From: a virus | Length of the DNA: 23,285 bases | Virus record (IMG/VR): IMGVR_UViG_3300021197_001826 | Coordinates: 1 to 23,285 of that record | Strand: one strand, 5' to 3' | Part shown: positions 1,061-23,285 of the stretch, piece by piece | Layout: each line of letters starts with the position of its first letter | Numbering within the stretch: the first letter of the stretch is position 1 | Program-made: the position numbers and the translations under genes | Notes under the pieces: model-generated | What the model was told of the DNA's origin: nothing | What the model saw: only the letters and a program-made list of their open reading frames with translations | Database searches by the model: none

Positions 1061-1429
1061 ATGTTTGAAGAAGAAATATTTCAAGGTAAGAATTTTTCCG
1101 ACTTATTAAAAGAAATTCATACGAATTCTAAGAAAAAAGATAAGCAGATAAATTCTTTAATTGCTCAATTGCATCCACTAATTAAAAATATAAGTGATGC
1201 AACAATACTAGTACCATTAATAAAGGATTATCTAGACGTAGGAATAAAAAATGACGACATGCTAGTTAAAATGGCTAGTATTGTTCAAAGAGCGCAAACC
1301 AGATCTGAGTCTGAAGGAAGTGATTTTAGTCTTAGCGATGATGAACGAAAACAACTATTAGATACAATAAAGGAAACTGAAAAGCCCGTTAAGTGGGAAG
1401 AAGAACATGCCAAGGATAAAACCAAGTAA
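1061..1429 (+). CDS. Helical protein of unknown function upstream of the spike gene
   Basis: This 122-residue protein is highly charged and predicted largely helical: an acidic N-terminus, a Lys-rich stretch around residues 20-30, a hydrophobic helical middle (about 30-80) and a charged C-terminus rich in Asp, Glu and Lys. There is no signal peptide or membrane segment. The start at 1061 follows a weak Shine-Dalgarno-like AAAGGG. Its last 23 bases overlap the start of the peptidase-bearing spike gene, so the two are probably translationally coupled. The position suggests a tail or baseplate assembly factor or chaperone for the hub, but nothing in the sequence identifies it. Confidence 0.8.
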   Translation: MFEEEIFQGKNFSDLLKEIHTNSKKKDKQINSLIAQLHPLIKNISDATILVPLIKDYLDVGIKNDDMLVKMASIVQRAQTRSESEGSDFSLSDDERKQLLDTIKETEKPVKWEEEHAKDKTK

Positions 1430-3035
1430 AAAAAGTACTCCATCCGTAAAAGGTCAAAATAATCAAGCCAAAGCAATTCAATCAGCTTTACTCGAATCGG
1501 CTGAAGTTGTTGATATAATAATGGATCCATCTCACCCAGCCTTTAATCCTAGCCAATATAGGGTTATTGGTAGTATACAGGCTCGAGCTTTTCCAAGAGA
1601 GTTTGGTATTTCCGGAGATAGTTGTAGTTGGTATAATCCTTTATTTCCAAACCTAAGACAATATCCTTTACTAGGAGAAATAGTTGTACTTTTAGCAGCT
1701 GCTGGAAGAGCAGCCCAATTAAGTACAGCATCAACTGAAAAGTATTATATTAGTATGCCAGTTGGAGTATGGCAAGGAGTTAACCAAAACGGATTACCAG
1801 CCGCAAGCTATAATATAAATAAAGCCGGTGGTGATGATAAGAATTATAGAACTTTTACTGGTAACTCTAAGGGAGACGTAAATGACCTTCCGTTTGGTAA
1901 TACATTTGAAGCAGATACAATAGCTAGAATTTTTCCATATGAAGGAGATACTATATTAGAAGGAAGGTTTGGTCAATCGTTAAGGTTTGGTAGTACGGTA
2001 TCTGAACCTGATACAGAAAACGATTGGTCTAAAGACGGTATTGATGGAGATCCAATAACTATATTATCAACCGGTCACTCAACAACCGATGGAGGGTATC
2101 ATATAGAAAGTATAAATGAAGATTCCTCAGGAGTATGGATGTTATCAGGACAAAGCGTTCCAATAGATGTAGCCTCTAAATTAGCAGATTCATATGGTCA
2201 AGCCTATGAAAGTGCAAAAGAAGCAGAACGAGAAGCCATTGCTGGACCCGATGCCGCTGAAATTCCAACTGCTGGTGGAGCAACTAGTGGAGGTAAAGCT
2301 GAAGGAGATCAAAGAGCTGGTGGTGGAGGTGCAGAAAACGGAGAAGACGATCAAGGCCCAGTATCTGAAACAGAAGTAGAGCCAGACAAAGATATAGAAG
2401 AAGCTGTTGAAGAACTACAAGATGCTGGAGAATACGATGCATTTAGAAGAGGTAAATTTGTTGAAACAATAACATGTGTAGTTATTGACGGTAAAATTGT
2501 AAACAAAGCTTTTGCAGATAAAATACTAACAGTAAAACAGGCAGCTTCAAAAGATGGAGTCACAGTTAAAGTTAATAGTGGATTTAGGCCCATGGAGGCA
2601 TATTCAGGACAAGGGTTTGGAGGCGATGGTCAAATGACTCTTAGAAGAAAAAATGCTGATAGAGCCTATCAAGGTACCAAATCTGGATTGTCAAAACCGG
2701 ATGGAGTATACGACGATGGTTGGTCAAAGCAAATAAGACAAGGTGGATATTTTAAACCTCTGACCGCTGGTCCAGGACATTCAAACCACCAAAACGGTAA
2801 AGCATTTGATCTACAGACTGACATGGAAAAAAGATGGGGAAACCCAAAAACAGATCCAGACTTTAAAGGATATAAAGAAACATCTAAAACGTGGAGATGG
2901 CTTGTTGCAAATATGCATAAGTATGGATTTATTAGAACGGTTGCAAAAGAGCGTTGGCACTGGGAATATTCACCAGGAACTGGTATGTTTTCTAGAGTAC
3001 CTAGAAGCCACCCAACATGGGACTTTTTAGTATAG
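1407..3035 (+). CDS. gp5-like baseplate hub/spike protein with M15 peptidase domain
   Basis: This 542-residue protein has three parts. Residues about 30-110 (around VIGSIQARAF and GEIVVLL) resemble the OB-fold region of T4 gp5-type spike proteins. Residues about 260-345 are a low-complexity Ala/Gly/Glu linker. Residues about 350-542 form an M15 (VanY / L-Ala-D-Glu peptidase-like) domain with SGFRP (391-395), the zinc motif SxHxxGxAxD (H461, D468) and ERWHWEY with E515 as the likely catalytic base and H518 as the third zinc ligand. It would cleave peptidoglycan peptides during tail penetration, in place of the lysozyme domain of T4 gp5. There is no signal peptide, consistent with delivery as part of the virion. 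The following gene supplies a separate spike tip. The M15 call is strong; the OB call is moderate. Confidence 0.88.
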   Translation: MPRIKPSKKSTPSVKGQNNQAKAIQSALLESAEVVDIIMDPSHPAFNPSQYRVIGSIQARAFPREFGISGDSCSWYNPLFPNLRQYPLLGEIVVLLAAAGRAAQLSTASTEKYYISMPVGVWQGVNQNGLPAASYNINKAGGDDKNYRTFTGNSKGDVNDLPFGNTFEADTIARIFPYEGDTILEGRFGQSLRFGSTVSEPDTENDWSKDGIDGDPITILSTGHSTTDGGYHIESINEDSSGVWMLSGQSVPIDVASKLADSYGQAYESAKEAEREAIAGPDAAEIPTAGGATSGGKAEGDQRAGGGGAENGEDDQGPVSETEVEPDKDIEEAVEELQDAGEYDAFRRGKFVETITCVVIDGKIVNKAFADKILTVKQAASKDGVTVKVNSGFRPMEAYSGQGFGGDGQMTLRRKNADRAYQGTKSGLSKPDGVYDDGWSKQIRQGGYFKPLTAGPGHSNHQNGKAFDLQTDMEKRWGNPKTDPDFKGYKETSKTWRWLVANMHKYGFIRTVAKERWHWEYSPGTGMFSRVPRSHPTWDFLV

Positions 3036-6846: not shown

Positions 6847-8025
6847 ATGATATATTCAATTAAAGCAAATAGAGACACAACACTATACGAATTTACTTCT
6901 AGTATGAATACCGGGGTAGACGAAGTACTACAAATACAAAAAATTGTTTCAGCATCTAATACTGCTAAAACGTTTAACTCTAGAATACTAATTGATTTTG
7001 ATTTGTCAGTTTTATCTAGCTCCGTTGCAGCAGGAGTATTAGGCGAAAATTATCCAAATACTTCATCCCCTAAATACTATCTTAACTTATATACTCTACA
7101 AGCAGCTGCAATTGATTATAAGTACGGAATAGAAGCTTTTCCAGTAAGCGAATCGTGGAATATGGGTAAAGGAAGAAGAATAGACCGTCAAAGTGAAGGT
7201 GGAGTAATAGTTACCCAAACAGAAGGCTCTAGTTGGAAATATAGAGATGGAGAAAAATACTTTGGTACCCAATGGGCTAGCGGTAGTGTACTTGAAGGGT
7301 CAGACGGTACTGGATCTTTTTCAAATAATCCTGGAGGAGGAACATGGTATTTCAATTCAGGTAGTGCTTCACAGTCGTTTGATTATGAATTAACAGATTT
7401 AAGATTAGACGTTACTGATATAGTAAATAATTGGTTTAACACAGAAATTGAACAAAATGGATTTATAGTACTTAGAAGTGGATCGCAAGAGTCAGGAGAA
7501 GTTGATGAAGAGAGAAATGGAAAGCCTCTTGGAGAACTCAGCTTTTTCTCAACTGATACCCATACCGTATACCAACCAAAACTAGAAGTCGTAACAAAAG
7601 ATTTCGTGTATGACACAGCTCTACAAGTATTAGATACCACGTTAACAGAAAGTATTGTTGACATTAAAAATTTAAAATCAAAATATAACTCAAAGTCTAG
7701 AGAAACATTTAGACTTGTTGTCAGAGAAAAATTCCCAGCAAAAACATATGATACGGTATCAGCCGCTCTAACACAAATGGTTTTACCCGAACAAACATAC
7801 TATTCTGTTAGAGACTATGTAACTGATGAAGTTGTAATTCCTTTTGATGAGCCTGGTACTCAATTGTCTGCTGATAGCAATGGAAACCATTTTAAACTTT
7901 GGATGGACCAATTTTATCCTGAAAGAAGATATAGGTTTATATTTAAAACTATTGGAGGAGACGTTGATTTTCCAACTAGTCAATCTCTTTTTGATAACGA
8001 TTATATATTTAAGGTGATTAACTAA
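6847..8025 (+). CDS. Baseplate/tail structural protein with DNRLRE-like domain
   Basis: Residues about 1-250 of this 392-residue protein follow the DNRLRE (CBM96-type) pattern: RDTTLYE near the start, SRILIDFDLSVL, a strand LNLYTLQAA, aromatic Trp-rich turns (SESWNMGKG, GSSWKYRDG), LDVTDIVNNWF, NGFIVLRSG, and PKLEVVTKD closing the fold. The remaining 140 residues are beta-rich with no known motif. The DNRLRE fold in other proteins is linked to carbohydrate binding. On a baseplate it could be a structural sandwich or a glycan-binding module. It follows gp6 where T4 has gp7 and gp8, and its stop overlaps the next start codon by one base (TAATG), indicating translational coupling. Confidence 0.75.
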   Translation: MIYSIKANRDTTLYEFTSSMNTGVDEVLQIQKIVSASNTAKTFNSRILIDFDLSVLSSSVAAGVLGENYPNTSSPKYYLNLYTLQAAAIDYKYGIEAFPVSESWNMGKGRRIDRQSEGGVIVTQTEGSSWKYRDGEKYFGTQWASGSVLEGSDGTGSFSNNPGGGTWYFNSGSASQSFDYELTDLRLDVTDIVNNWFNTEIEQNGFIVLRSGSQESGEVDEERNGKPLGELSFFSTDTHTVYQPKLEVVTKDFVYDTALQVLDTTLTESIVDIKNLKSKYNSKSRETFRLVVREKFPAKTYDTVSAALTQMVLPEQTYYSVRDYVTDEVVIPFDEPGTQLSADSNGNHFKLWMDQFYPERRYRFIFKTIGGDVDFPTSQSLFDNDYIFKVIN

Positions 8026-9395
8026 TGGCATACTCAAACAAAGGAAAATTTAGAAGAACTTCTCCTAAAAAATCTAGAAGCAATAAGCGTAGGTTTCCAA
8101 CTAGCCCTATAACGCCTAGATCAAATAAATATGGAGCAAATAAACTTGTCAGGCCTGTAAAGGGTACATCTAATAGGTTTGAAGTTATTGATGAAGAATA
8201 TACTCCTTTTGCACGAGCCTGTAAAATTGAGCTAGCAAAAGAAAACCCAGAGCAATTTGAATATAGAGATGATTTCGATTATTCACTAGGTTCAATATCA
8301 ATACGACCATCCGATAAAAACAGAATAGCTTCTGACGAAGGAGACGAAGACGGAAACAATCAAGTCGCAACAGAAAAAGTTGTGCGCAACCCAGCAGGAA
8401 TAATAATTTCAACAGAAGATAGCGAAGAAAATGGAGAACGAATGGTGATTGCAAACGCTCGATATGTTTTTGACAACGCAGACTTTAGAAGGATAGTTGA
8501 TACTGAAATTACTGAACTAGCAGTTCAACCTCAACCATTAGACGGTCCAAATAAAGCACCTATAGTGATAGATACCCAATGTTATCCAGGATATGGATTA
8601 TTAGATGGTAGTAGAAGTGATGGATACACCATTCAAACACTACCAGAGCTAGGAGAACCTAGTTATCAAATACCATCTAATAATAATGTTGCTTTTTATG
8701 CAGATGCATATAGTTATATTGATGATGACGGTACTAGAAAAAACGAAGGATTAACCTACATTTGGAGATTTACAGCAGACGGAATAGGAAATGCCCAAGC
8801 TGCAATAGTTGGAAACGAACCTGTTCTTAGACTATATAATGTTCAACTACAACAACGAGGTAGATATACTTGTGAGGTTCAAAACGAAAAAGGTAGCTCG
8901 TATACAAAAACTATATTTCTTAACCCTCTTGGAGGTTTATTAAGGGAATTAGATGACAATGGATTACCAACTGGAGCTCTTGTTAGAGATGACGATCATG
9001 ACGCAGAATTTAGTCAATTTGATTCATACTTTGACTATGACACAGAAGATGGACGATGGTTCTTAGTAGACTGGAATGGAAACCAGTGGGTAGAGTCAAA
9101 TCAAGAACCAAACTTCTATAAAGGAAAAGATTTGCCTAAGTCAACAAACCAAGCAAAGACTATAATTTCAAAGGCAAGCGCTATAGCAACTAGAAGTCAA
9201 AACCTTTCTAGGTCAAGGGCAATTGGAAAGTATTTTCAAGATTCAACTTCAAATATTTTCTTTATTGAACCAGGAAAACCAAACGTTAAATTTACAAGTA
9301 TGAGTGAATATGAATCCCATAAAGAAACAACAGGATTTACTTTCCAAGGAACAAACGAAGTAGATAAATTAACGTATAAAGACCAGGAGCTCTAA
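8025..9395 (+). CDS. Tail structural protein with Ig-like domain and basic N-terminal tail
   Basis: This 456-residue protein begins with about 45 residues rich in Lys, Arg, Ser and Pro (FRRTSPKKSRSNKRRFPTSP), probably disordered. An Ig-like domain spans about residues 215-300, with the core W247 (YIWRF) and the YxC signature Y281-x-C283 (GRYTCEVQNEKG). The usual B-strand cysteine is replaced (VAFYADA), so the typical disulfide is absent. After it come an acidic Tyr/Asp-rich stretch (about 325-365) and a helical, basic segment. Ig domains on phage structural proteins are usually surface-exposed and may bind glycans weakly. The gene lies between the DNRLRE-like and the giant wedge protein, so it is probably a baseplate or fibre-connecting component. 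Confidence 0.8.
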   Translation: MAYSNKGKFRRTSPKKSRSNKRRFPTSPITPRSNKYGANKLVRPVKGTSNRFEVIDEEYTPFARACKIELAKENPEQFEYRDDFDYSLGSISIRPSDKNRIASDEGDEDGNNQVATEKVVRNPAGIIISTEDSEENGERMVIANARYVFDNADFRRIVDTEITELAVQPQPLDGPNKAPIVIDTQCYPGYGLLDGSRSDGYTIQTLPELGEPSYQIPSNNNVAFYADAYSYIDDDGTRKNEGLTYIWRFTADGIGNAQAAIVGNEPVLRLYNVQLQQRGRYTCEVQNEKGSSYTKTIFLNPLGGLLRELDDNGLPTGALVRDDDHDAEFSQFDSYFDYDTEDGRWFLVDWNGNQWVESNQEPNFYKGKDLPKSTNQAKTIISKASAIATRSQNLSRSRAIGKYFQDSTSNIFFIEPGKPNVKFTSMSEYESHKETTGFTFQGTNEVDKLTYKDQEL

Positions 9396-19610: not shown

Positions 19611-19751
19611 ATGATAGAATGGCTTAGACATATATTGGGTATTTGTGGTGAACCGCACCCAAGTCTATTGACAATAATTTACGGTACACCAATTTTAGGT
19701 TATATTACATACAGAATAAGGGATTACATAAATGGCAAGAAGAATAAGTAA
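19611..19751 (+). CDS. 46-residue single-pass membrane peptide
   Basis: An ATG at 19611 opens a 46-codon frame ending in TAA at 19749-19751, overlapping the start of the resolvase gene by 20 bases. The peptide has an N-terminal amphipathic part with a compact motif, GICGEPHPSL (residues 10-19), a hydrophobic segment (LLTIIYGTPILGYITY, about 19-34) and a basic C-terminus (NGKKNK), consistent with one membrane helix with the C-terminus inside. It fills the 128-base gap between the adhesin and the resolvase. No Shine-Dalgarno sequence is obvious. The ordered composition and gene-packing argue that it is real; the function is unknown. Confidence 0.6.
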   Translation: MIEWLRHILGICGEPHPSLLTIIYGTPILGYITYRIRDYINGKKNK

Positions 19752-20133
19752 AGCTAGGTCAAATGCAATTAAGCATGGATACCGGTCAGGATTTGAACAT
19801 AAAGTAGCAGATCAACTAAAAGAATCAAAAACTAAATTTGAATACGAAACTACAGTTATAGATTATATTAAACCAGAAACTCAACACAAATATACTGTAG
19901 ATTTTACATTACCAAACGGTATATTGGTAGAAACAAAAGGCAGGTGGGTTCTTGAAGATCGCAAGAAACACCTACTAATAAAAAAACAGCACCCAAAATT
20001 AGACATAAGAATTGTTTTTCAAAACCCAAAGGGAAAAATAAGAAAAGGAAGCAAAACAACTTATGCAGATTTTTGTGAAAAACATGGAATAGTTTGGGCA
20101 GAAAAAGAAATACCAACTGACTGGTTAAAATAA
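19732..20133 (+). CDS. T7 endonuclease I-type Holliday-junction resolvase
   Basis: This 133-residue protein matches T7 gene 3 endonuclease I along nearly its whole length: RSGFEHKVADQL, KFEYET, YTVDFTLPNGILVETKG, DRKKHLLIKKQHPKLDIRIV, YADFCEKHGI and a C-terminal PTDWLK. The four catalytic residues of the PD-(D/E)XK-type active site align as E22, D57, E67 and K69 (T7: E20, D55, E65, K67). It should cut four-way and branched DNA, resolving replication and recombination intermediates before packaging. T4 itself uses the unrelated endonuclease VII (gp49). It overlaps the 46-residue gene and precedes primase and SbcD-SbcC, making a replication-recombination block. Confidence 0.95.
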   Translation: MARRISKARSNAIKHGYRSGFEHKVADQLKESKTKFEYETTVIDYIKPETQHKYTVDFTLPNGILVETKGRWVLEDRKKHLLIKKQHPKLDIRIVFQNPKGKIRKGSKTTYADFCEKHGIVWAEKEIPTDWLK

Positions 20134-20180: not shown

Positions 20181-21095
20181 ATGAAAAGTGTAAGATTAGT
20201 ACAACTATTAGAGTCTGTTTTATTAAAAGGAGACCATAACCATAAACAAAGTGAAATCTCATTTAAGTGTCCTTTTTGCAAACACCACAAGAAAAAACTG
20301 AATGTTAATTTATTAAGTCAAAAGTGGCATTGTTGGGTTTGTGGAATGGGTGGCCACACAATACTTGGATTATTTAGAAAGTTAAGAGTAGAAAAAAGGT
20401 TTTATGATTTACTTAATAAAATAACAGGCGGTAAAACTTATTCTGTCGATAAACAATATGAACATCTAAGTTTACCAGCTGAATTTTTACCTTTGTGTAA
20501 AGCCAAATTAAAAAACCCAGAAGCTAAAAATGCGCTACACTACTTAAACAGTAGAAATATAACTAGTCAAGATATATTAAAATATAATATAGGCTATTGT
20601 GAATCTGGAAAATATAACGGAATGATAATTATTCCGAGTTATGATGAAGATGGAAAATTAAATTTTTTTACGGGTAGAAGTTATTATGATGTTAATTTTA
20701 AACACCTAAACCCAGTGGTAACAAAAGACATTATAGGATTTGAACTATTTATAAATTGGAATCAACCGATAACAATTGTTGAAGGAGCTTTTGATGCAAT
20801 AGCAATTAAAAGAAATGCTATTCCACTGTTTGGAAAACTAATTTTAGATAAGTTAAAAATAAAAATTTTAGAAAAAGGCGTAAAGAGAGTAAACGTTGCC
20901 TTAGATAAAGATGCCATGGCAAACGCTATAGATATGTGTGAGTATTTTATTTCAAACGGAATATCAGTACACTTTGTAGATTTGCCAGAAAAAGATCCTT
21001 CTGAAATAGGATTTTTTAATATAACAAATATAATAAACAATGTTAAAGAGTTAACACCTTTAAAACTCTTGGAGTATAAAATAAATGCATATTAA
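20181..21095 (+). CDS. DnaG-type phage DNA primase (T4 gp61-like role)
   Basis: This 304-residue protein is near the size of T4 gp61 (342). The N-terminal zinc-binding domain has C30-x-x-C33 (KCPFCKHHKK) and C51-x-x-C54 (WHCWVCGMGGH). The catalytic TOPRIM part shows GRSYYD near residue 170, the conserved Glu E201 in IVEGAFDAIAI, and the DxD pair D242/D244 in ALDKDA. It would lay RNA primers for lagging-strand synthesis with a replicative helicase not seen in this window. No Shine-Dalgarno sequence is present in the 47-base AT-rich gap upstream. Its last 11 bases overlap the start of the SbcD-SbcC gene, indicating coupled translation. Confidence 0.93.
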   Translation: MKSVRLVQLLESVLLKGDHNHKQSEISFKCPFCKHHKKKLNVNLLSQKWHCWVCGMGGHTILGLFRKLRVEKRFYDLLNKITGGKTYSVDKQYEHLSLPAEFLPLCKAKLKNPEAKNALHYLNSRNITSQDILKYNIGYCESGKYNGMIIIPSYDEDGKLNFFTGRSYYDVNFKHLNPVVTKDIIGFELFINWNQPITIVEGAFDAIAIKRNAIPLFGKLILDKLKIKILEKGVKRVNVALDKDAMANAIDMCEYFISNGISVHFVDLPEKDPSEIGFFNITNIINNVKELTPLKLLEYKINAY

Positions 21096-23285
21096 TTTAG
21101 GATTTAACGAAGTTGAAAAAATATTACATGTTGCAGATGTACATATTAGAAATTACAAAAGACACAAAGAATATAGGCAGGTGTTTAGAAAATTATATAA
21201 GGCTGCTAAAGCTTTGCCTGAAAATAGTATAATATATCTAGCTGGAGATATTGTACACACAAAAACAGACATTAGCCCAGAACTGGTAAGTATAGTAAGC
21301 GAATTTTTTAATAAACTTGCTAACATACGACCAACAGTTTTGATAGCCGGTAATCACGATGCCAACCTTAATAATAGATCAAGGCTAGACGCATTAAGTC
21401 CAATAGTAGAAAATTTAGCAAATGAAAACTTATATTATTTAAGAGATAGCGGAATATATACGTTTGCAGACGTTGACTTTATAGTATACTCTGTTCTAGA
21501 AGAAACAAAAACTTGGCCAAACGCAAAAAAATCAAAATCTAAAAATAGGATAGGTTTATTTCATGGAGCAGTAAACAATTCAAAAACAGATGCAGGCTAT
21601 ACTGTAAGAGATGAAAATTTACCTTTAAAAACTTTTGATGGTTGCCACATGGTAATGTTAGGAGATATACACAAATACCAACATTTAAACAAGTCTGAAA
21701 CAATAACATACGCAGGATCTCTTATACAACAAAACTTTGGAGAAACTTTTGAAGATCATGGATACGTTATTTGGGATATTAAAACTAGAAAATCTGAATT
21801 TTTTAATATAACCAATGAATATGGATATTATACGATAAGAATGAAAGATGGAATATTACCAAACATTGATAATATACCAAAATATCCTAGGCTAAGGTTT
21901 ATAACGGAAAATACAACCCAAGCCCAGGTAAAAGAGTCTTTGTTAGAAATAAGAAAAAAATGCAGAGTTCAAGATTATGTTGTAATACGTGGAGATAGGG
22001 TTTCAAATATATCAAATAATTCTAGGTCTTCAACCGAAATTACCAGAGATATTAGAGATTCTGAATATCAAAACAAACTAATAATAGAACACCTTCAACG
22101 AAATTTTGCCGACATAGACGAAGAAAAAATATCTAGAATAAGAAACATAAACAGAGAATTAAATAAGATGTTGCCTGATATTGAAATAGGCAGAAATATA
22201 AAGTGGAAACCTAAAAAGTTTGAGTTTTCTAATATGTTTAGTTATGGAGAAGGAAACACCATAGACTTTAATAATATGAAAGGAGCCGTTGGAATATTTG
22301 CAGCAAATCATGCTGGAAAATCTGCAATATTAGACGCTCTATCCTTTTGCATATTTGATAAATGCTCTAGAACTAAAATGGCAGCTGCCGTAATAAACAA
22401 TAAAAAAAATAATTTTTCTTGTAAATTAAATTTTGAAATTGATGGCGTTGATTATTTTATAGAAAGAAAGGCAAAAAGAAAAAAAGATGGTGGCGCACGA
22501 GTTGATGTAAATTTTTGGATGGTTGGAGAAGATGGATCCATAATATCATTAAATGGAGAGCAGCGAGTATATACAAACAGAAATATTAGAGGAATGCTTG
22601 GTAGCTATGAAGATTTTGCACTAACATCTCTATCAGTTCAAAATAATAATACTGGATTTATAGATAAAACACAGACAGAAAAAAAGGACTTATTGGTGCA
22701 GTTTTTAGATATAACAGTCTTTGAAGAACTATACCAATTAGCAAATGAAGAAATAAAAGACGTACAAGTACTATTAAAAGACTTCAATAAAACAGACTTT
22801 TCTGAAAATTTAACAGGAGCAACAGACTCCTTAAAAGGTTTAGAACTGGAATACTCAAACCTAAATGTAGAAAAAACCAAAATACAAAAAAGTGAAAAGA
22901 CTGCAAATAAAAAGATTATTGAATATACGTCTAAGTTAATTAGACTAGGTTCAGATGTACCTGAAAGTGTAGAGGCACTAAAAGAATCACTTACTGTCTT
23001 ATCTAAACAGTTAAAGGATGAAAACGAAAAATTAAGTAAGTATGAAAAATACACCGAAGAAAATAAAAAATTGTTTGTAGAGCTATCTGAAGAAATAAAA
23101 TCTTATAATAAGCAAGAACTAACAACTGAATCAGAGTCATATAATAGCATAGAAAAAAAATTACAAAAGGTAAACAATAGTATAGACTTAATGAAGGTAG
23201 AGGTTAAAAATAAGTTAGATACCGTTAAAAGATTACATAGTCATGAGTACGATCCAGACTGTGAATACTGCCGAGACAATGCTGT
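21085..23285 (+). CDS. sbcDC: Fused SbcD-SbcC (gp47-gp46-like) recombination nuclease, 3' partial
   Basis: This is one open frame of 733 codons with no stop, running off the right edge. Residues 1 to about 330 are an SbcD/Mre11/gp47 phosphoesterase with DVH (D18, H20), GD (D55), GNHD (N90, H91, D92), H160 and GDIH (D194, H196) as metal ligands. A helical linker (about 330-370) leads into SbcC/Rad50/gp46: FSNMFSYGEG, Walker A AANHAGKS (406-413, K412), Q-loop Q519, a coiled coil from about 540, and a zinc-hook CxxC (C726, C729) close to the window end. The returning coil, signature motif and Walker B lie beyond. It would process DNA ends for recombination-dependent replication. GGAG lies 10 bases before the start, and the start overlaps the primase end. 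Confidence 0.92.
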   Translation, partial: MHINLGFNEVEKILHVADVHIRNYKRHKEYRQVFRKLYKAAKALPENSIIYLAGDIVHTKTDISPELVSIVSEFFNKLANIRPTVLIAGNHDANLNNRSRLDALSPIVENLANENLYYLRDSGIYTFADVDFIVYSVLEETKTWPNAKKSKSKNRIGLFHGAVNNSKTDAGYTVRDENLPLKTFDGCHMVMLGDIHKYQHLNKSETITYAGSLIQQNFGETFEDHGYVIWDIKTRKSEFFNITNEYGYYTIRMKDGILPNIDNIPKYPRLRFITENTTQAQVKESLLEIRKKCRVQDYVVIRGDRVSNISNNSRSSTEITRDIRDSEYQNKLIIEHLQRNFADIDEEKISRIRNINRELNKMLPDIEIGRNIKWKPKKFEFSNMFSYGEGNTIDFNNMKGAVGIFAANHAGKSAILDALSFCIFDKCSRTKMAAAVINNKKNNFSCKLNFEIDGVDYFIERKAKRKKDGGARVDVNFWMVGEDGSIISLNGEQRVYTNRNIRGMLGSYEDFALTSLSVQNNNTGFIDKTQTEKKDLLVQFLDITVFEELYQLANEEIKDVQVLLKDFNKTDFSENLTGATDSLKGLELEYSNLNVEKTKIQKSEKTANKKIIEYTSKLIRLGSDVPESVEALKESLTVLSKQLKDENEKLSKYEKYTEENKKLFVELSEEIKSYNKQELTTESESYNSIEKKLQKVNNSIDLMKVEVKNKLDTVKRLHSHEYDPDCEYCRDNA

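Follow-up and report, generated by a model that had tools for sequence, protein, structure and literature searches.

Are the homologs of the nuclease Mre11 (SbcD) and the ATPase Rad50 (SbcC) truly encoded in one polypeptide by a virus, or do two genes only appear to be fused? The question is raised by the IMG/VR virus record IMGVR_UViG_3300021197_001826, which we analyzed over its entire 23,285 bases (hereafter, the window). An initial annotation, made from the sequence alone, had described both homologs in a single frame at the end of the window and had set this arrangement against the separate SbcD and SbcC genes of other genomes, an organization that we indeed see in phage T4 and in Escherichia coli K-12. 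We found that the single-chain Mre11(SbcD)-Rad50(SbcC) fusion is genuine. The best explanation, to which we assign a probability of roughly 0.88, is that a tailed phage encodes here an SbcCD/Mre11-Rad50 enzyme in a single chain, which processes DNA ends and belongs to a fusion family that resembles Mimivirus R555.

One frame in the window and in its relatives

On the plus strand, one frame runs from an ATG at position 21085 through 733 codons without a stop, up to the last full codon of the window (21085-23283). Its 3' end is cut by the end of the contig just past the CxxC hook, so that 733 of about 1051 codons are present, and the window's own contig is not extendable because the record comprises only these 23,285 bases. 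The two parts were searched separately against Pfam and PHROG, as the initial annotation had proposed, with the split placed at residue 370. Residues 1-370 alone matched nuclease families (Metallophos, E = 9.9e-14; phrog_100 SbcD, E = 5.6e-29), and residues 371-733 alone matched ATPase families (AAA_23, E = 1.6e-11; phrog_77 SbcC, E = 5.8e-27). Each half of the open frame is thus matched independently, which bears out the description of two homologs in one polypeptide. The remainder of the gene was read in an IMG/VR contig (L002) whose product is 97% identical to the window protein over residues 1-733 and whose whole gene encodes 1051 amino acids. There, the hook CEYC (C726/C729), TSGMEK at 962, IDEGFGNLD at 992, and ISH at 1024 all lie in one frame; the signature motif and Walker B that had been sought beyond the contig end, as well as the D-loop, are in the same frame as the nuclease.

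The relatives came from several scans. The first gave 25 loci and the second, with alignment, covered the best 80 of 588 relatives; because their ranking favors long matches, a scan with the nuclease part only was added, covering the best 80 of 589, from which 75 new locus identifiers were examined, many of them on contigs of the first set. We aligned 102 fusion rows, made up of 77 new loci from the second scan, 24 of the 25 from the first (L026, a 467-base piece, was excluded), and L027. These rows represent 100 contigs, since two contigs occur twice (L006/L034 and L012/L033). The open reading frame (ORF) is closed in 87 of the 102 rows (85 of the 100 contigs), and every closed ORF is single, with 1040-1066 amino acids; the other 15 run off their contigs. 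None of the 100 rows that extend beyond the nuclease-ATPase junction is split there, and the remaining two (L023 and L025) end before it. In the nuclease-ranked scan, Walker A follows in the same frame across the junction at 73 of the 75 loci, the other two stopping at contig ends, and 53 ORFs are closed, with 1037-1057 amino acids counted from the match start. Relatives in which the junction falls between two genes, which the initial annotation had named as grounds for abandoning the fusion, are thus absent from this near set, and the single-chain matches that it had suggested looking for in related phages include a GenBank entry, Microcystis phage Mel-JY01, with a single coding sequence (CDS). 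Among the near relatives examined, those extending beyond the junction all have one gene, apart from one with an insert elsewhere in the gene. Over codons 311-385, the ratio of nonsynonymous to synonymous substitution rates (dN/dS) was 0.006-0.126 in six of seven comparisons, several of them with dS above 1; the seventh was not computable.

Two-gene loci do occur farther away. Among the 46 of 56 cellular loci that were examined, 33 have two genes in the same order, 3 are fused, and 10 carry one half only. The two-gene loci are distant relatives, many of them metagenome-assembled genomes (MAGs) of Candidatus Daviesbacteria, with best-segment identities of 22-31%. Two genes in the same order are also found in Enterococcus phage phiM1EF22 and Pectobacterium phage CBB. 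Three loci from bins labeled as Nitrosopelagicus, Chloroflexi, and Gammaproteobacteria MAGs (L110, L111, and L112) carry the same fusion, with 1053-1055 amino acids, and are probably viral contigs in MAG bins. A plasmid scan returned three records with a best cover of 22%, and matches to NCBIfam all fell under the curated cut-offs.

Two trees of the quick kind, one for the nuclease and one for the heads, were built from hand-picked rows comprising 20 fused IMG/VR loci, three MAG contigs, the window, named phages, uncultured huge phages, 14 cellular split loci, and E. coli K-12. Phage-type fusion rows group apart from the split proteins in both (25 rows in the nuclease tree and 26 in the head tree, each with a support of 99), and all fused rows lie on one side of a branch with supports of 71 for the nuclease and 96 for the heads. 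Long branches, among them those of Sphingomonas phage PAU, a 735-kb phage, E. coli, Vibrio phage PG07, and CBB, carry a risk of false joins, and it is through such branches that PAU and the 735-kb phage are joined at depth; all viral fusions may share one origin, but need not.

Domain anatomy and the linker

Along the chain come the nuclease, cap, helix-loop-helix, an 11-residue linker, the Rad50 head, coiled coil, and CxxC hook; the rest of the head is seen in the relatives (Table 1).

Table 1. Coordinates of the fusion gene, its parts, and the two genes preceding it in the window (AF2, AlphaFold2)
Feature	Position	Strand	Evidence
Mre11/Rad50 (SbcD/SbcC) fusion gene	21085..23285	+	open frame; Pfam, PHROG; full length in L002
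Mre11-type phosphoesterase (nuclease) domain, residues 12-241	21118..21807	+	PF00149 at residues 12-198, E = 4.9e-13; AF2 models
Motif V GDIH, Asp194 for P. furiosus Mre11 His206 (metal ligand)	21661..21672	+	row alignment
Capping domain, residues 246-302	21820..21990	+	AF2 strands 246-254, 267-275, 297-302; helix from 279; aligned with 7dog
Mre11 helix-loop-helix (Rad50-binding), residues 326-361	22060..22167	+	two AF2 models; profile and structural alignments
Inter-domain linker, residues 362-372	22168..22200	+	11 residues
Rad50 N-terminal ATPase half-head, residues 373-543	22201..22713	+	PF13476, E = 1.6e-11 on second part alone
Ascending coiled-coil arm, residues ~544-722	22714..23250	+	L002 AF2 helices 544-719 with breaks
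Zinc-hook CEYC, residues 726-729	23260..23271	+	two Cys kept in 87/87 closed rows
DnaG-type primase gene	20181..21095	+	phrog_47, E = 4e-39; 11-base overlap with fusion gene start
T7-type endonuclease I	19732..20133	+	PF05367, E = 3.9e-55; precedes primase gene

Two AF2 models were examined, one of full-length L002 (predicted local distance difference test score [pLDDT] 82.6, predicted template modeling score [pTM] 0.49) and one of residues 1-372 of the window protein (pLDDT 85.9, pTM 0.76). The best Protein Data Bank match (VIA) of the latter was S. aureus SbcD, a nuclease-and-capping structure (7dog_A; Z 24.8, 3.1 Å over 272 residues), and the head of the L002 model matched E. coli SbcC (7yzo_D; Z 30.2, 3.3 Å, 348 residues). 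The half-head has the Walker A motif FAANHAGKS and SVQ at 517. In all 87 closed rows, the Walker A Lys-Ser, the SGME signature, the Walker B DE, the D-loop Asp, the H-loop His, and both hook cysteines are invariant; the D-loop Asp is preceded by Leu in 72 of these rows, by Met in 13, and by Ala in 2.

The initial annotation had taken residues 330-370 as a linker replacing the C-terminal helices with which Mre11 binds the Rad50 coil. This view had to be given up. Both models place a weak stretch at about residues 305-320 after the nuclease and capping domains, and then helices at 326-340 and 346-361. A 40-sequence profile aligned residues 187-359 to residues 203-375 of T. maritima Mre11 (3qg5_C), and structural alignments to 3tho_B, 7yzo_B, 6s6v_A, 6s85_B, 7yzp_B, and 3qg5_C reached model residues 363-372, with root mean square deviations of 5.0-22.4, the high values being expected if the helices sit at a different angle. 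As modeled and aligned, the Rad50-binding helix-loop-helix of Mre11 is therefore kept, and the predicted linker is only 11 residues long (residues 362-372). Of the 100 rows that cover it, 98 have 11 residues and 2 have 12 (96 and 2 of 98 distinct contigs).

The metal site and competing explanations

The nuclease had also been credited with the full set of phosphoesterase motifs. Motifs I-IV are present, but motif V is GDIH, with an Asp at the position of P. furiosus Mre11 His206; the residues concerned are DVH from 18, GDIVH from 54, GNHD from 89, H160, and GDIH from 193. Metal-site columns, among them D8, H10, D49, H52, N84, and H85, are given in P. furiosus Mre11 numbering. The numbering of His173, His206, and His208 follows Yoshida, Claverie, and Ogata (2011; PMC3175470). 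D8, D49, and H52 are kept in 102/102 rows, and N84, H85, H173, and H208 in all 101 rows that cover them.

Several points weigh against reading the fusion as an R555-like DNA-end-processing enzyme. The His206 column is Asp in 101/101 covering rows (99/99 distinct contigs), and in 13 of the 102 rows the motif I column H10 holds Gln where the other 89 have His, so that the metal site is unlike that of characterized enzymes. The full-length model has a low pTM (0.49), which leaves the placement of the nuclease relative to the head tentative. No activity assay of any family member was found among open-licence papers, as judged from their listings, and the likeness to R555 is drawn from its published description (PMC3175470). 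One relative, the 484-kb uncultured phage LR756508.1, has a gene interrupted by an insert. PF00149 failed on the fusion in 1 of 14 contigs searched (G010), whose 1050-amino acid frame was recovered by AAA_23. On these 14 contigs, which belong to records whose completeness is not given, a RecA-family match was found on 6 and not on the other 8, and endonuclease I on 7 and not on the other 7. Finally, the locus lists hold the best 80 of 588 and the best 80 of 589 relatives.

The metal site opens the rival reading that survives best, namely that the nuclease site has been re-tuned or weakened, so that the protein would mainly tether DNA ends in an ATP-driven manner or would cut with a different preference for metal or strand. 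The uniform Asp and the 13 Gln rows favor it, as does the GHxH of 21 of the 22 split comparison proteins. GDIH is found at 75/75 loci of the nuclease-ranked scan (GHxH in 0/75). However, Asp can also bind metal, and the remaining ligand columns, as well as H52 and H85, are invariant. Moreover, the exception among the split proteins, the Mre11 homolog D12 of Vibrio phage PG07, has GDLH, so the Asp is not tied to the fusion. We therefore regard a re-tuned site as unlikely. A broader proposal, that the whole viral fusion clade has its own metal site (Asp for His206 and, in part, Gln for the motif I His) along with a near-fixed 11-residue tether, seems to us rather unlikely too; if true, the fusion would be a re-engineered nuclease-ATPase with cleavage or metal rules unlike those of SbcCD, beyond mere convenience of expression.

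Asp194 was also considered as a hallmark of fusion and rejected, since the fused protein of phage PAU has GHIH and the split PG07 D12 (L169:2148-3029) has GDLH. The 13 rows with DxQ in place of DxH in motif I (L059, L060, L061, L063, L064, L065, L066, L074, L079, L085, L092, L093, and L104) have MD, not LD, at the D-loop, besides the motif V Asp. In LR756508.1 (L031), the insert of about 1 kb lies right after motif V (L031:3692-4609) and contains an ORF of 305 amino acids that matches a TnsA-like endonuclease (E = 5.8e-6); the insert matched no Rfam family and may be a mobile intron or similar.

It is very improbable that the chain is a precursor from which a protease releases the nuclease and the ATPase as separate subunits. 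In the nuclease-part model, residues 305-321 have a pLDDT below 50 and may be exposed, but this stretch precedes the helix-loop-helix, so that cleavage within it would leave the Rad50-binding part attached to Rad50; the almost constant linker length also speaks against it. Least credible of all is an assembly or base-calling artifact in which a missed stop or frameshift near the junction gives neighboring genes the look of a fusion. The window is a single metagenomic contig, and 33 of the 46 distant cellular loci examined have the two genes side by side in this order, but we rejected this explanation on the closed single ORFs, the Mel-JY01 CDS, the low dN/dS, and the nuclease-ranked scan with its many first-set contigs.

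A known family, its neighbors, and its presumed role

The genuine single-chain enzyme is not new. Yoshida, Claverie, and Ogata (2011) described Mre11/Rad50 fusions in Mimivirus R555, a Bacillus phage, plasmids, bacteria, and eukaryotes, and argued that the abundant aquatic R555 homologs are viral, many perhaps from phages (PMC3175470). R555-like sequences were reported on marine Global Ocean Sampling (GOS) scaffolds beside phage primases and gp3-type endonucleases, with the fusion itself confirmed only in a few long environmental sequences (PMC3175470). The surprise expressed in the initial annotation does not hold, because such fusions on marine phage-like scaffolds had already been published; the window is a longer piece of exactly that kind, and the finding is real, ordinary, and already known. 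Later work on phage fusions was not found among open-licence papers, judged by titles and the starts of abstracts, and passages of PMC7824862 and PMC8616854 had no bearing on the fusion.

As described for R555 (PMC3175470), the phage protein is one chain with the Mre11 part first, the capping and helix-loop-helix region kept, a linker of 11-12 residues against the 9-12 expected from the T. maritima complex, and Asp for His206 (GDxxH in R555); the primase and endonuclease neighbors recall those on the GOS scaffolds. It is shorter, with 1051 amino acids in L002 against 1351 in R555. The best viral structure match was a Tupanvirus "Putative DNA repair protein" (E = 1.0e-76, 27% identity), followed by other giant-virus proteins aligned across most of their length; R555 itself was not returned from the collections searched. 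WWT39521.1 of Mel-JY01, annotated as "AAA domain containing protein", is 42.1% identical over the whole of L002, has GDIH, and lies two genes downstream of a primase-like gene, but a GIY-YIG gene takes the place of the window's endonuclease I. E. coli SbcCD shares both folds (7yzo_B, Z 24.1, for the nuclease) and has sbcD preceding sbcC, but as two genes whose ends overlap by 4 bases, and with GHIH. Phage T4 also has Mre11 and Rad50 homologs, gp47 and gp46, with a presumably shared role; unlike the single ORF here, they are encoded by two genes, separated by 46.1 and 46.2, and gp47 has GHFH. In PAU gp288, a single 1301-amino acid frame holds nuclease motifs followed by Walker A and CxxC, but with GHIH and a very long branch, and it is perhaps a separate fusion.

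Among the 94 rows with at least 1500 bases upstream, a primase match precedes the fusion in 93 and an endonuclease I match in 54. The fusion is the sole AAA_23 match on each of the 14 contigs searched (up to 245 kb), so no second SbcC was found on them, although these contigs may be incomplete pieces. On 6 of the 14, PF00149 also matched stand-alone frames of 220-278 amino acids (10 matches). Other genes of the window encode a gp25-like baseplate wedge protein and another baseplate wedge subunit, presumably gp6. Residues 365-523 of a 542-amino acid protein (1407-3035) match a VanY D-Ala-D-Ala carboxypeptidase domain (E = 1.4e-12), and this protein is perhaps a virion peptidoglycan hydrolase. 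Two proteins have weak matches under curated cut-offs, one of 136 amino acids (266-676) to an outer-membrane beta-barrel (E = 0.0023) and one of 456 (8025-9395) to immunoglobulin-like domains (best E = 0.0015).

Known Mre11-Rad50 complexes are already 2:2, so the suggestion that a covalent link fixes an otherwise free stoichiometry is not supported. In the single-chain enzyme, two chains would pair through the nuclease and through the ATP-bound heads, and the helix-loop-helix would grip the root of the coiled coil as in the two-subunit complex. The tether would keep the nuclease and ATPase parts together, with the linker merely bridging a gap like that of about 28 Å given for the T. maritima complex (PMC3175470). 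The enzyme would recognize DNA ends, and on hydrolysis of ATP its heads would open, allowing the nuclease to trim or clip those ends; by homology to T4 gp46/gp47, trimming may yield 3' tails for recombination-dependent replication and repair.

The overall significance of the finding is limited, and the conserved metal-site Asp is simple to test. Since its nuclease and ATPase cannot separate, a naturally fused Mre11-Rad50 of about 1050 residues would be convenient for structural and single-molecule studies. That so many relatives lie on viral contigs agrees with the view put forward in 2011 that such fusions reside mainly in viruses (PMC3175470).

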